Below the pieces are notes generated by a model. It ran no database searches. It saw only the letters and a list, made by a program, of their open reading frames with translations, and was not told the DNA's origin. This document shows positions 7,293-45,312 of a stretch of DNA of 45,435 bases, piece by piece. The position numbers and the translations under genes were made by a program. This DNA comes from Rhabdothermincola sediminis (GTDB taxonomy: Bacteria; Actinomycetota; Acidimicrobiia; Acidimicrobiales; Acidimicrobilacustridaceae). The stretch spans positions 1 to 45,435 of the forward strand of contig NZ_JACFSZ010000022.1 in assembly GCF_014805525.1 (NCBI RefSeq), written 5' to 3'. Each line of letters begins with the position of its first letter. The first letter of the stretch is position 1.

Positions 7293-10085
7293 ATGGCCAT
7301 GGCGCCGGAGCAAGCGGGCATCGGCATCCGCCGACACTTCACCACCGCGGGGGTCCACCCCTACGACATGGTGGCGTGGGAGCGTCGCGATGCTCGCATC
7401 ACCAACTACCGAGACGGCTCGGTGGCCTTCGAGCAGACCGACGTCGAGTTCCCCGTGGGTTGGTCCCAGAACGCGACCAACATCGTCGCCCAGAAGTACT
7501 TCCGGGGGACCCTCGGCACCCCTGAGCGGGAGCACTCGCTCAAGCAGGTCGTCGATCGGGTGGTCGACACGATCACCGAGTGGGGTCGCCGCGACGGCTA
7601 CTTCGTCGACGACGACGAGGCCCAGACCTTCAGCGACGAGCTCAAGTACCTGCTCATCACCCAGCGGGCGGCGTTCAACTCCCCGGTGTGGTTCAACATC
7701 GGGGTGGCCGGCGTGCCCCAGCAGGCGTCCGCGTGCTTCATCCTCTCCGTCGAGGACACGATGGACTCGATCCTCAACTGGTACGTGGAGGAGGGCACGA
7801 TCTTCAAGGGCGGCTCCGGCGCGGGCATCAACCTGTCCCGCATCCGCTCGAGCCACGAGCTGCTGAAGGGCGGTGGCACCGCCTCCGGGCCAGTGAGCTT
7901 CATGCGTGGCGCGGACGCCTCGGCCGGCACGATCAAGTCGGGTGGCAAGACCCGGCGTGCGGCGAAGATGGTGATCCTCGACGTCGACCACCCCGACATC
8001 GAGGAGTTCATCTGGTGCAAGGCCCGCGAGGAGCGCAAGGCCCGTGCCCTCGAGGCCGCCGGGTTCGACATGAGCCTCGACGGTGTCGACATCACCTCCA
8101 TCCAGTACCAGAACGCCAACAACTCGGTGCGGGTCACCGACGAGTTCATGCAAGCGGTGCTCGACGATGCCGACTGGCACCTGCGGGCCGTCACCACCGG
8201 CGAGATCATCAAGACCGTCCGGGCCCGCGACCTGCTGCGCCAGATCTCCCAGGCGGCGTGGGAGTGCGCGGATCCCGGCATGCAGTTCGACACCACCATC
8301 AACCACTGGCACACCGCCTGCAACACCGGCCGCATCAACGCCAGCAACCCGTGCAGCGAGTACATGCACCTCGACAACTCGGCGTGCAACCTGGCCAGCC
8401 TCAACCTGCTCACGTTCCTCGACGAGGACGGCACCTTCGACATCGAGGGCTTCGAGCGGGCGGTCGAGGTGGTGTTCACCGGCCAGGAGATCCTGGTCGG
8501 CAACGCCGACTACCCGACCGCGGCCATCGGTGAGACCTCACGCCGCTTCCGCCAGCTCGGGCTCGGCTACGCCAACCTCGGGGCGATGCTCATGGCCCTC
8601 GGCCTGCCGTACGATTCCGACGCCGGCCGGGCGTGGGCGGCGGCGATCACCGCCCTGATGACCGGTCATGCCTATGCCACCTCGGCTCGCACCGCGGTGC
8701 GCATGGGGCCGTTCGCCGGCTACACGGAGAACGAGGAGCACATGCTGCGGGTCCTCGGCCTGCATCGCGCCGCGGCGGCGGAGATCGACGAGGAGCTCGT
8801 CCCTCACGAGCTGCTCTCCGCCGCCCAGCGCAGCTGGGACGAGGCCTGCGAGATCGCATCCGAGTACGGGGTGCGAAACTCGCAGGCCAGCGTCCTCGCT
8901 CCGACCGGCACGATCGGGCTCATGATGGATTGCGACACCACCGGCGTCGAGCCGGATCTGGGGCTCGTGAAGATGAAGAAGCTGGTGGGCGGCGGCACCA
9001 TGTCGATCGTCAACCAGACCGTGCCCCGGGCCCTGCGCACCCTCGGCTACAGCGTCGACGAGATCGACCGGATCGTCGCCTACATCGACGAGCACAAGAG
9101 CATCGTCGGAGCGCCCGACCTGCGGGCGGAGCACCTGCCCGTGTTCGCCTGCTCGATGGGTGACAACACCATCCACTACCTCGGCCACGTGAAGATGATG
9201 GCGGCGGTGCAGCCGTTCATCTCGGGCGCCATCTCCAAGACGGTCAACCTGCCCGAGGAGGTCAGCGTCGAGGACGTGGAGCAGCTCCACATCGACGCCT
9301 GGCGCATGGGTCTCAAGGCCATCGCGATCTACCGCGACAACTGCAAGGTGGCCCAGCCGCTCGCCACCGCGAAGAAGGAGAGAGCTTCCGACGCCCCGGC
9401 CGCGGCGACCCAGGTGGTGGAGAAGATCGTCGAGCGGATCGTGCAGGAGCCGGTGCGCCAGAAGCTGCCCCGCTCGCGCACCTCGCGCACCTTCGAGTTC
9501 CGAGTGGCGGACTGCAAGGGCTTCGTGACGGTCGGGGAGTACGACGACGGCCGCCCGGGTGAGATCTTCGTGCGGGTCTCCAAGCAGGGCTCGACCCTGG
9601 CGGGCATCATGGACGCCTTCGCCATCTCGGTGAGCCACGGCCTGCAATACGGCGTGCCGCTGCGCAGCTTCGTGGAGGCCTTCACGGGTATGCGCTTCGA
9701 GCCCGCGGGTATGACCGACGATCCGGACATCCGCATCGCCAGCTCGCTGATGGACTACCTGTTCCGCAAACTGGCGGTGATGTACCTCTCGCCCGAGGAG
9801 CGGGCCGAGCTGAACATCCTCACCACGGCGGAGCGCACCCAGCCGACGTTGCCCGGGGTGGAGGAGACCGTCGTCGAGACCCGCCAGGGTGAGCTGCCCG
9901 CCGACCCACCGTCCATCGAGTCGGCGTCCACGCTCGTGGGCCGGGTCGAGCCCGGTGTGGGGGCCCGCCAGCCGGAGGTGCGCCACAGCGACGCGCCGAT
10001 GTGCATGCAGTGCGGGGTGCAGATGGTGCGGGCCGGGAGCTGCCACGCCTGCCCGAGCTGCGGCACCACCAGCGGCTGCAGCTGA
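7293..10085 (+). CDS. nrdJ: Adenosylcobalamin-dependent ribonucleotide reductase (class II)
   Basis: NrdJ reduces ribonucleotides to deoxyribonucleotides with an adenosylcobalamin-generated thiyl radical, independently of oxygen. The product has 930 residues, the usual size for the long actinobacterial form. Visible features: FNSPVWFNIG and ASACFILSVEDTMDSI (first redox Cys region), GGSGAGINLSRIR, NPCSEYMHLDNSACNLASLN (radical/catalytic loop), QASVLAPTGTIGLMMDCDTTG, and a Cys-rich C-terminal tail (MCMQCGVQMVRAGSCHACPS) that re-reduces the active site. ATG 7293 was chosen because GGGGAGGAA lies 7 bases before it; the open frame extends 40 codons further without protein character. Regulation by NrdR is expected from the boxes at 7102 and 7144. 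Confidence 0.97.
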   Translation: MAMAPEQAGIGIRRHFTTAGVHPYDMVAWERRDARITNYRDGSVAFEQTDVEFPVGWSQNATNIVAQKYFRGTLGTPEREHSLKQVVDRVVDTITEWGRRDGYFVDDDEAQTFSDELKYLLITQRAAFNSPVWFNIGVAGVPQQASACFILSVEDTMDSILNWYVEEGTIFKGGSGAGINLSRIRSSHELLKGGGTASGPVSFMRGADASAGTIKSGGKTRRAAKMVILDVDHPDIEEFIWCKAREERKARALEAAGFDMSLDGVDITSIQYQNANNSVRVTDEFMQAVLDDADWHLRAVTTGEIIKTVRARDLLRQISQAAWECADPGMQFDTTINHWHTACNTGRINASNPCSEYMHLDNSACNLASLNLLTFLDEDGTFDIEGFERAVEVVFTGQEILVGNADYPTAAIGETSRRFRQLGLGYANLGAMLMALGLPYDSDAGRAWAAAITALMTGHAYATSARTAVRMGPFAGYTENEEHMLRVLGLHRAAAAEIDEELVPHELLSAAQRSWDEACEIASEYGVRNSQASVLAPTGTIGLMMDCDTTGVEPDLGLVKMKKLVGGGTMSIVNQTVPRALRTLGYSVDEIDRIVAYIDEHKSIVGAPDLRAEHLPVFACSMGDNTIHYLGHVKMMAAVQPFISGAISKTVNLPEEVSVEDVEQLHIDAWRMGLKAIAIYRDNCKVAQPLATAKKERASDAPAAATQVVEKIVERIVQEPVRQKLPRSRTSRTFEFRVADCKGFVTVGEYDDGRPGEIFVRVSKQGSTLAGIMDAFAISVSHGLQYGVPLRSFVEAFTGMRFEPAGMTDDPDIRIASSLMDYLFRKLAVMYLSPEERAELNILTTAERTQPTLPGVEETVVETRQGELPADPPSIESASTLVGRVEPGVGARQPEVRHSDAPMCMQCGVQMVRAGSCHACPSCGTTSGCS

Positions 10086-10227: not shown

Positions 10228-10919
10228 GTGAACGAGCGCACGACCGTCGCCGCCGGTGTGACCGAGGTACGTCTCGCCCGGCTGCGTCGCTGGAACGTCG
10301 GGCTGGCGGTGCTCCACGGCGCGCAGGCAGTGCTGATCCTGGTCCTCGCTGGGCACTTCGCGGTCACCATCACGTCGACGTTCCCGACCGGGCCACCCGG
10401 CACGGCGCTGCCGGCACCGGAAAGCATCCTCGACGTGCGGGTCGGGCCGGCCTCGCCGTGTTCCTGGCTCTGGCGGCCGTCGATCATCTGACGACCGCCA
10501 CGGTGGGTCGGGGACTCTACGAGCACGACCTGCGCCAGGGCATCAACCGCTTCCGCTGGGTCGAGTACGCCCTCAGCGCCACGGTCATGGTGTTGCTCAT
10601 CGCGCTCTACAGCGGGATCACCGACGTCACCGCGGTCATCGCCATCGCGGGAGCGAACGTGGGGATGATCTTCTTCGGGTGGGTGCAGGAGCTCACCAAT
10701 CCGCCCGGGCGGCCCAGGACCTCGATGCTCCCGTTCTGGTTCGGGACGCTGGTCGGGCTGGCGCCATGGATCGCCATCGCCACCAACGTCGTCGGTGCGG
10801 CGACGGTGCCGGGCTTCGTGTACGGCATCGTCGTGGCCCACGCCACGCTGACCGGGTCGGGGGCTGGGCGCGTCGTAGGAGGGTTCGAAGCCCGACGCCG
10901 AGCTGAGCCCGATGCGTAG
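10228..10919 (+). pseudogene. Heliorhodopsin remnant (frameshifted, truncated)
   Basis: Two overlapping frames together encode about five helices of a heliorhodopsin, a light-sensing retinal protein family with inverted topology. The first frame (GTG 10228) carries RRWNVGLAVLHGAQ and the FPTGPPGTALPAP loop. After a one-base loss near 10447 the frame from about 10449 continues with GLAVFLALAAVDHL, FRWVEYALSATVM (holding the conserved counterion Glu), GVQEL-type FFGWVQELTNPPG, LPFWFGTLVGLAPW and VPGFVYGIVV. Homology stops near 10835; helix 7 with the retinal-binding Lys (family motif LVAKSALAWQ) is missing. It cannot form a pigment. A deletion appears to have joined it to an opposing broken gene. 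Confidence 0.85.
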
Positions 10920-11251
10920 CTCGCCGTAGTCGATGGTCAGGCTCGCCTTGATGTTCAGCCCCTTGACCGTGCGGACCACGTCGTCGTCGAAGTAGATGTC
11001 GGCCCACTCGTCCGCGCAGGCGTAGTCGCTCTGCCCGGGCCGCCCGCTGGGCTGCCAGTTCGCGGGGTGGACCAGGGTAGTCGTCCTCGGCCCCGGTCCA
11101 GATCCTGGTGCAGAACGGGAGCGGCTCCGGCGGGGTGACGGTCGCCGGAGGCGACCAGTAGGACGAGCGCCGAGGTGGCCGCGATCGCGGCGGCAGCCGC
11201 GAGAGCGATGGCGCAGCGCCGGGGGAGGTGGATGGCGGGCAGGTGGGGCAT
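10866..11251 (-). pseudogene. Frameshifted secreted protein, unknown family
   Basis: Read from 11251 downward, the ATG gives a signal-peptide-like start (MPHLPAIHLPRRCAIALAAA then an Ala-rich hydrophobic core). The coding sense moves to a second frame near 11150 (TPPEPLPFCTRIWTGAEDDYP) and to a third near 11075 (HPANWQPSGRPGQSDYACAD, WADIYFDDDVVRTVKGLNIK, IDYGELRIGLSSASGFEPSY). No stop codon remains: the last frame runs on antisense to the heliorhodopsin remnant, so the 3' end was lost at the same junction. The right-hand boundary is approximate. Two frame changes could be sequencing errors, but the missing 3' end cannot be explained that way. Confidence 0.6.
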
Positions 11252-11463: not shown

Positions 11464-12123
11464 GTGATCACCAGTCGTCGACGTCGCTTGACCATCGCAG
11501 CCGGCATCGCCGCCGCCGTCCTGGTCCTCGCCGCCTGCGGGAAGGACAAGCAGGAGTCGTCCGCGTCCACCACCACGGCCGCGGCCAGCGGCACGACGGT
11601 CGTGCCCAGCAACGCGGCGAGCGTGCGCTACGACGAGCAGATCCAGCAGTGGCTGACCGAGGTCGGCTGCAACCCCGGTGGAGTGGACGGGGTCATCGGC
11701 CCGCACACGGAGGCCGCCATCGTCGAGTTCCAGCAGGCGGAGGGCCTGGCGGCGAACGGTGAGATGGACGCGGCCACCACGAAGGCGCTCGAAGCGGCTG
11801 CTCAGGCGGGGAAGAAGGTGTGCGGCACCACCGGGACCACCGCCTCCACGACCACCACCACCGCCGGCGGGCAGGCCCCCTGCACCCCGACGGCGCTGGT
11901 GGCGGCCATCCCGCAGGGCGACGTGATCACCGGCTACGTCTGCGCCGACGGCTATGCGGGGGTCACCGGCACGGTGGGCAACGGGAGCACGACCACGTTC
12001 CACTACATCCTGCAGTCAGAGAACGGATCGTGGACCAGCCTCGGCGACGAACCGTGCGGCGCGGCCAGCGCCGGCATAGCGCCCGCGGTGCTGGAGATGG
12101 GCTGCCCGCCCGAGCAGGGCTGA
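11464..12123 (+). CDS. Lipoprotein with peptidoglycan-binding-type domain
   Basis: The product has 219 residues. It starts with an Arg-rich n-region, a hydrophobic core and the lipobox LAAC (lipidated Cys25). A Thr/Ser-rich linker follows, then a peptidoglycan_binding_1-like domain (about 53-110: YDEQIQQWLTEVGC, GVDGVIGPHTEAAIVEFQQA), a second Thr-rich linker, and a Cys-containing C-terminal domain (about 137-219) I do not recognise. AGGGAGGGG precedes the GTG. It is probably anchored on the outer face of the cytoplasmic membrane and binds cell wall. It is the only intact gene in the decayed 10.2-12.4 kb stretch. Confidence 0.82.
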   Translation: MITSRRRRLTIAAGIAAAVLVLAACGKDKQESSASTTTAAASGTTVVPSNAASVRYDEQIQQWLTEVGCNPGGVDGVIGPHTEAAIVEFQQAEGLAANGEMDAATTKALEAAAQAGKKVCGTTGTTASTTTTTAGGQAPCTPTALVAAIPQGDVITGYVCADGYAGVTGTVGNGSTTTFHYILQSENGSWTSLGDEPCGAASAGIAPAVLEMGCPPEQG

Positions 12124-12133
12124 CCGCCACCCC

Positions 12134-12374
12134 ATGACCGCGGGGCGGGCCGAGCTGCGCACCGAGCGGCTCGTCCTGCGGCCCTGACGCCAGGAGGACT
12201 GCGAGCCGTTCGCAGCGGGTCATGGAGCGGCTGGGCATGACTCGTGACCCCCGCGACGACTTCGAGCACCCGCTGGTCGAGGCCGGCATGGCCCTCACCC
12301 GGCACGTGCTCTACCGCCTCTCGCGAACCGGGTTCGGGCCCGGTGCGGCGGGCGCGGCGTCCCCCCGCTCCTGA
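12134..12374 (+). pseudogene. GNAT acetyltransferase remnant with large internal deletion
   Basis: The first part reads MTAGRAELRTERLVLRP, then TGA where the family has Trp (RPW), then RQEDCEPFA. This is the usual N-terminus of RimJ/RimL-type N-acetyltransferases. From about 12217 another frame gives RVMERLGMTRDPRDDFEHPL and RHVLYRLSR, the usual C-terminus. The roughly 110 codons holding the acetyl-CoA site are gone. The nonsense codon plus the deletion make this a true pseudogene, not a sequencing artefact. Confidence 0.75.
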
Positions 12375-12510: not shown

Positions 12511-14592
<2,082 letters not shown>

Positions 14593-44220: not shown

Positions 44221-45312
44221 ATGGTGGGATGCAACGGTTGTCACGCAACGATCACCGCGGCGGATCGCTTCTGTCCAGCCTGCGGCCTGCCCAACCGGCA
44301 GGCTCGGTTCCACCCGAAGTTCGGGCCGGCACCGGAGGAACCTCCGGGACCGCCGCCCCGTCCTGGCGCGCCACCCTCGGGTGTGCCGTACTGCCCCCGC
44401 TGCTGGGCCGAGGTGCGGCTCTCCCATCCCTTCTGCGGTTCGTGCGGGATGCCGCTCGACGACGTGCGAGCTCGAGCGGAACTGGCCCGCTTCGGTGGGG
44501 TGTGGCTCACCCACGGCCCGGACGGTCGTCCCCCCTACCGGTCACTGCGCTTCCTCACCGCCGTGGTGCGGGCGCTCGCGGGTGCCACCATGGTCGTGGC
44601 CCTGCTCGTGGCGAGCAGCTCGGTGCTCGGTCTGATCCAGCACCGCGACCGGTTCAGCTCGTTCCGGGTGGACCAGACCGATGCGGCCAGCTTCACCGGT
44701 CGCCTCCAATGGCTGATGGCGGCGCTCATCGTCGCCGACGCGCTCGCGTTCATCGTCTGGACGACGAGGGCGTACCGGAACCTGCCGCTGCTGGCCGTGA
44801 AGGGGCTCCGGATCCCGACCCGGTGGGCCTGGACGGTGTGGTTCGTGCCGTTCGGGAACCTCATCTGGGGCAAGGAGCTGGTGGATGACGTCTACCGGGC
44901 GAGTGATCCGTCGGCGCCGGTCCTGTCTCCTGGGTGGCGGCTGCGGACGGTGCCGATGCGTGTGCACTTGTGGTGGATCTCGGTGATGGCCTCCGGCGTG
45001 GTGCTGCTCACCGCGCACTGGATGTCGCCCTCCCCGGCGGGTGGAGCGGAGGTGGGTGGCGCGGCGCTGGGCCTGATCGCCGCGGCGCACTTCTCCATCG
45101 CCACCGCCGCGGTGCTCACGGCGCTCCTGGTGACCGAGGTGGCGACCCGCCAACGGCGGCGGGTCGCGCACCTCGGCGTCGCCGGGCAGGCCTCCCGCAC
45201 CGTTGACCTGGCCAGCGTCGCGACGTCGCGCCGGTCGGGCCCCGAGCCCCGGTTCGAGAAGGTCCCGGTCCTGGTGCATGCCGACACTGGTTCCGTGGCC
45301 GGTCGCTACTAG
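44221..45312 (+). CDS. Double zinc-ribbon membrane protein (DUF4328-like)
   Basis: The product has 363 residues. Two zinc ribbons (C4, C7, C18, C21 and C58, C61, C72, C75) are separated by a proline-rich linker. The membrane part has about four helices: VVRALAGATMVVALLVASSS, WLMAALIVADALAFIVW, a W-rich segment RWAWTVWFVPFGNLIWGKEL characteristic of DUF4328, and two C-terminal helices near WWISVMASGVVLLT and AAAHFSIATAAVLTALLV. ATG 44221 was chosen since the frame upstream is antisense to the enoyl-CoA hydratase gene. The function is unknown; the zinc ribbons would be cytoplasmic. Confidence 0.82.
   Translation: MVGCNGCHATITAADRFCPACGLPNRQARFHPKFGPAPEEPPGPPPRPGAPPSGVPYCPRCWAEVRLSHPFCGSCGMPLDDVRARAELARFGGVWLTHGPDGRPPYRSLRFLTAVVRALAGATMVVALLVASSSVLGLIQHRDRFSSFRVDQTDAASFTGRLQWLMAALIVADALAFIVWTTRAYRNLPLLAVKGLRIPTRWAWTVWFVPFGNLIWGKELVDDVYRASDPSAPVLSPGWRLRTVPMRVHLWWISVMASGVVLLTAHWMSPSPAGGAEVGGAALGLIAAAHFSIATAAVLTALLVTEVATRQRRRVAHLGVAGQASRTVDLASVATSRRSGPEPRFEKVPVLVHADTGSVAGRY

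Follow-up and report, generated by a model that had tools for sequence, protein, structure and literature searches.

Between nrdJ and an hppA-type pyrophosphatase gene of Rhabdothermincola sediminis lies a stretch of DNA that reads as a heliorhodopsin gene in two pieces. Is this gene dead, how was it broken, and has it always been at this place? The window, that is, the whole contig of 45,435 nucleotides, was analysed together with the remainder of the genome and with related genomes. According to our analysis, positions 10228-10850 very probably represent a heliorhodopsin pseudogene, probably of recent date, that was likely disabled by a frameshift and by a deletion with one end in helix 6.

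The heliorhodopsin remnant and its missing end

The remnant is spread over two reading frames of the plus strand. The first one (10228..10449) encodes the N-terminus, helix 1, a loop with GPPGT and the start of helix 2; it covers positions 1-60 of the PF18761 profile and is 69% identical to residues 11-80 of the copy in genome G031, the closest one in the family. The second frame (10449..10850) completes helix 2 and continues, with RWVEY in helix 3, as far as the beginning of helix 6; it covers profile positions 60-192 and is 67% identical to residues 81-218, so that identity with G031 is 67-69% over residues 11-218 of 263. The helix numbers used here are those which we take to apply from heliorhodopsin structures. 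In the profile search of the window, the match of ORF 10228-10491 (+, frame 1) to positions 1-60 had an E value of 1.6e-10, and that of ORF 10458-10919 (+, frame 2) to positions 62-192 of 242 had one of 3.9e-47; both exceed the curated cut-off and identify the region as heliorhodopsin by descent. When all six frames of the entire genome (3.29 Mb, 49 contigs, rated 100% complete) were searched, the pieces 10282-10455 (E 1.7e-9) and 10452-10844 (E 1.4e-47) were recovered, and no others. Such matches are far beyond chance. The two of them, in different frames, meet in the zone 10445..10458 (+). Hence, the first five helices are readable across one frameshift, as a previous sequence-only reading had claimed, and helix 6 is represented by its first part as well.

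The same reading had pointed to the FRWVEY counterion segment, which is indeed legible: the second piece aligns across RWVEY with solved heliorhodopsins, e.g. 48C12 (6su3, E 3.4e-28). In frame 2, the E of WVEYALSATVMVLL is followed by S at +4 and by L at +11, presumably the usual spacing of the three motif positions. These helix-3 positions of heliorhodopsins (E, S, L; ESL) are described in passages of PMC9601134.

For the 3' side, the sequence was anchored at FVYGI and compared with 72 different intact relatives, all of which share at least 62% identity with G031. Similarity stops at 10850/10851: agreement is substantial up to 10841, declines over 10842-10850 and consists of isolated chance matches from 10851 onwards. 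After the FVYGI region the relatives shown go on as FFSFxLNQWL, which the window does not. Because agreement fades over 10842-10850, the remnant reaches about 10 bases beyond the end at 10840 given in the sequence-only reading, which had otherwise located it correctly. Similarity thus ceases within helix 6, before SxxxK and the helix-7 lysine. Compared with the 72-87 intact relatives, the gene carries two disabling lesions, a frame change and a truncation, and instead of one open frame with seven helices there are two frames with helices 6-7 lost.

The missing 3' end was not found elsewhere in the genome by the six-frame profile search or by order-wide protein searches, and its displacement within the genome was rejected for want of any match. 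The order-wide search did recover stand-alone C-terminal pieces (42-68 residues) from four other genomes, so that a displaced 3' end should have been visible in the Rhabdothermincola assembly. Among the family and order genomes listed, the other copies with a truncated C-terminus (G006, G105 and one piece of G017) sit at contig ends, so the truncation is not a conserved form. The description of a dead or dying copy that has lost its retinal-binding lysine helix was borne out, and neither another heliorhodopsin nor a type-1 rhodopsin was found in the genome. No opsin function should be expected of the remnant, because a seven-helix opsin cannot be formed and no lysine is left to hold retinal.

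Neighbours, distribution and ancestry

The upstream neighbour is nrdJ (7293..10085, +), encoding a class II ribonucleotide reductase, recognized by Pfam and by full-length matches in relatives with 79-85% identity. Downstream there is the gene of an hppA-type membrane pyrophosphatase (12511..14592, +; PF03030) that differs from the kind present in relatives. Although hppA matches exist in 35 of the 37 family genomes (own genome included), the window protein is only about 50% (about 47-51%) identical to the relatives' near-full-length matches. It has the motif GNTTAA versus GNTTKA in 25 of 27 relatives' loci, the scan having yielded an unrelated stretch in the other two (L058, L071). We take this difference to mark K+-dependent versus K+-independent membrane pyrophosphatases. 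The lineage seems to have swapped its membrane pyrophosphatase for another type.

It had been proposed that these two neighbours mark the ancestral site, which would imply a gene inherited there from the family ancestor. Heliorhodopsin matches in 28 of the 37 family genomes, own genome included, agree with such an inheritance, and so does genome G058, from another family of the order, where heliorhodopsin follows nrdJ on the same strand. However, the identity of the G058 copy to the G031 query, a member of the window's subclade, is just 45%. When the nrdJ-hppA interval was compared among relatives, as had been suggested, heliorhodopsin followed nrdJ in none of the 12 examined; gene order is well kept upstream of nrdJ in the family and variable downstream. 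Among 161 heliorhodopsin loci (median length 12.4 kb, range 3.4-19.5 kb, some counted in two copies, the wide flanks covering part of the order's heliorhodopsin sites), nrdJ adjoins heliorhodopsin only in G058 and hppA in none. In one further locus (G380) nrdR is at about 6 kb. G058 and G380 belong to the same other family (f23), whose 12 examined loci showed no fixed neighbourhood. Considering these counts and the divergent hppA, we rejected the ancestral nrdJ-hppA site, to which we give about one chance in ten.

The phylogeny also bears on this point. The G031 protein was matched in 116 of the 397 genomes of the order, and relatives of the second frame were found on 222 genome-contig stretches, the closest among the best 80 of these being a copy from an Ilumatobacter MAG (REDU01000051), 76% identical over the matched stretch. 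This MAG has two copies of the window's subclade on separate contigs, L146 (REDU01000051.1) and L151 (REDU01000125.1). A heliorhodopsin tree of 118 rows was built from 117 distinct rows plus the window; the source was 152 full-length sequences out of 172 matching loci, and one full-length family copy (L007) was filtered out, which left 20 of the 21 family copies. The window and G031 fall in an 89-row clade (support 100/99) that includes copies of Ilumatobacter, Nocardioides and Streptomyces, whereas the other 19 of the 20 family rows form part of a separate 21-row clade (99/85). Because 19 of the 20 family rows belong to another subclade than the window, a transfer that brought in or replaced the gene appears at least as likely as family-wide inheritance. 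Of the earlier proposal that an ancestor used the family and that it was lost here, the part that stands is that some ancestor had an intact copy; inheritance throughout the family is less well supported.

In an nrdJ tree of 29 family genomes, out of 35 with nrdJ, the own genome stands on a branch by itself, and six changes are required by the labels intact, damaged and absent. The labels were set manually; G010 and G014, in which a contig end cuts through heliorhodopsin, were given none, and some of the 'absent' genomes are incomplete (G025, 72%). Because occurrence is patchy and the subclades are mixed, the data point to repeated gain, replacement and loss of heliorhodopsin. The loss had been presented as informative about the function of the family; in our opinion little follows from it, and the remnant alone does not reveal the role of heliorhodopsin.

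Age and cause of the loss

The surviving part of the gene appears little decayed. Compared with 87 intact relatives, and excluding the last 8 window residues, none of the 42 columns conserved at 99% is altered; of those conserved at 95%, 3 of 74 are altered (median 0, rank 5 of 88), and at 90%, 4 of 87 (median 2, rank 12 of 88). The NG86 dN/dS values, calculated without the first 15 and last 8 codons, were 0.22, 0.27 and 0.20 against three relatives, and 0.22, 0.16, 0.15 and 0.24 for four intact pairs; dS is near 1, close to saturation, so that the ratio is a blunt test of relaxed selection. With no change at near-invariant sites and dN/dS like that of the intact pairs, death is indicated mainly by the lesions, and the loss was probably recent. 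On the other hand, the above-median number of changed columns and the long end branch of the window in the heliorhodopsin tree (0.42 versus a median of 0.1) could mean an older death.

Facing the remnant, on the minus strand, is what is left of a gene for a secreted Calx-beta surface protein (10860..11251, -), of which everything past about the first 130 codons is gone. Its stretch 11063-10893 has 54% identity over 57 aa with the N-terminal portion of a Calx-beta protein of 1525 aa that the same genome encodes on contig C16, and a signal-peptide-like start near 11251, in a different frame, was seen by eye only. A frame change inside this minus-strand remnant, also noted by eye, is not claimed, as the match to the paralogue lies in one frame alone. 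The paralogue (L259:3857-8434) is nearly private to the genome among the 397 of the order; besides the own genome, the order-wide search with the remnant gave two weak matches (35% and 38%). The break itself spans 10842..10893: heliorhodopsin similarity stops at 10842-10851 and that of the opposite gene is present from 10893 at the latest, 42 unassigned bases (10851-10892) separating the two. Thus the Calx-beta remnant starts within about 43 bases of the heliorhodopsin break.

Further along, the gap contains an apparently intact gene for a lipoprotein with a peptidoglycan-binding domain (11488..12123, +; PF01471, E 2e-14), and lipoprotein-like genes occur near nrdJ in three relatives. It is followed by a second gene remnant (12138..12371, +), acetyltransferase-like by eye only, recognized by matches of 41-54 aa stretches to longer open frames in 3 of the 36 other family genomes. 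Pfam gave no match on either of the small remnants or on the 44-aa matched stretch from one of the second remnant's relatives. Translated comparison of the gap with the fetched loci gave merely scattered short matches in GC-rich sequence. At the other extreme of the window, the contig end (44077-45435) is without a convincing gene, the called ORF 44542-45279 (-) having no Pfam match.

The setting, a stretch with loose gene content, holds a small patch of decaying genes and is most simply read as the result of a deletion that brought two convergent genes together. An intact heliorhodopsin of an actinobacterial subclade (RWVEY type) would have followed nrdJ, its tail facing that of a gene for a large secreted Calx-beta protein. 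It would have been destroyed by a frame change close to where helix 2 begins, together with a deletion that has one end in helix 6, and the deletion probably removed most of the opposite Calx-beta gene too. A frameshift, combined with a deletion between the two convergent genes, is likely to be the cause; that a single deletion joined both genes, the order in which frame change and deletion came, and the recency of the loss are inferred. No relative with both genes intact in the supposed order was found, and the family list contained no other genome of the genus.

A sequencing or assembly artefact, in which a base error would mimic the frameshift and a false join would hide an intact 3' end, could account for a surviving part that looks as constrained as the intact copies. 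Nevertheless, two independent lesions would be required, the genome, rated 100% complete, yielded no 3' end at any other place, and two further remnants lie in the same 2.4-kb gap, so we regard it as unlikely, slightly more so than the ancestral site. Finally, a shortened heliorhodopsin that still works, for instance a lysine-less, retinal-independent membrane partner expressed from ORF 10458-10919, would agree with the lack of signs of strong relaxed selection and with an uninterrupted frame of 153 aa whose codon use is coding-like, and such a five-helix partner would explain why the remaining sequence shows little decay, but it is very improbable: the product would lack helices 1 and 7 and part of helix 2, the last ~20 residues of the ORF are not heliorhodopsin sequence, and other lysine-end losses among the 116 matching genomes of the order occur only at contig ends.

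Genomic context of retinal supply and comparison with other heliorhodopsins

As regards the retinal and carotenoid genes for which the sequence-only reading had advised a search, the genome does have a carotenoid cluster (L253:6534-13378, contig C1). It includes a crtI-family desaturase gene, phytoene synthase-like and prenyl diphosphate synthase-like genes, a type 2 IPP isomerase, two lycopene cyclase domains and a hydroxylase-like gene; a CarH-like B12-binding regulator adjoins it, and one RPE65-family enzyme is present in the genome. The crtI, isomerase and lycopene-cyclase matches exceed the NCBIfam cut-offs, whereas those of the putative synthase, prenyl synthase, regulator and cleavage enzyme are below the equivalog cut-offs. 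A BCD-type enzyme was not found in the genome. The regulator and the cluster are a possible light switch remaining after the loss of heliorhodopsin, a loss apparently caught soon after the event, with cluster, regulator and RPE65-family enzyme kept.

Few heliorhodopsin pseudogenes were thought to have been discussed; in keeping with this, none is described in excerpts of the open-access papers retrieved on heliorhodopsin with pseudogenes or gene loss. As excerpts of Bulzu et al. 2021 (PMC8612252) state, sequences with seven helices and SxxxK were counted, and similar filters are given in excerpts of PMC9166423; surveys with such demands are blind to broken copies like this one. In the same excerpts of PMC8612252, the genes linked with heliorhodopsin are those of oxidative stress rather than nrdJ or hppA.

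The remnant appears to record the ordinary and fairly recent death of a gene of a known family, not a new kind of system. In sequence, in helices 1-5 and in the RWVEY segment it resembles the intact heliorhodopsins of its subclade (G031, the Ilumatobacter MAG copy REDU01000051 and Streptomyces), but these are encoded in one frame and have helices 6-7 with SxxxK, which the remnant lacks. With 48C12 (PDB 6su3) it shares a RWVEY-type helix 3, in a match that spans helices 2-6; 48C12 is, as we take it, complete and retinal-binding, unlike the remnant.

Damaged copies inside contigs were also observed in G018 (contig C5) and G106 (contig C33). The G018 copy (L041:9568-10240), which is 90.5% identical over 222 aa to that of G019, is without helix 1 and the start and has retained its lysine; an intact divergent neighbour adjoins it. 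In G106 (L236:2059-2599) there is a C-terminal piece with a stop plus a 24-residue end on the opposite strand, and an intact heliorhodopsin exists on another contig. Copies cut by contig ends were not counted as damaged (G006, G017, G105, G014, G001, G010, G334, G244, G268 and G393), and G226 was dropped as a third candidate, as the stretch before its match reads N (masked or gapped upstream). Both damaged copies differ from the remnant in that the lysine end is retained and the N-terminal part is missing. Taken with the remnant, they suggest that heliorhodopsin is dispensable and turning over within one bacterial order.
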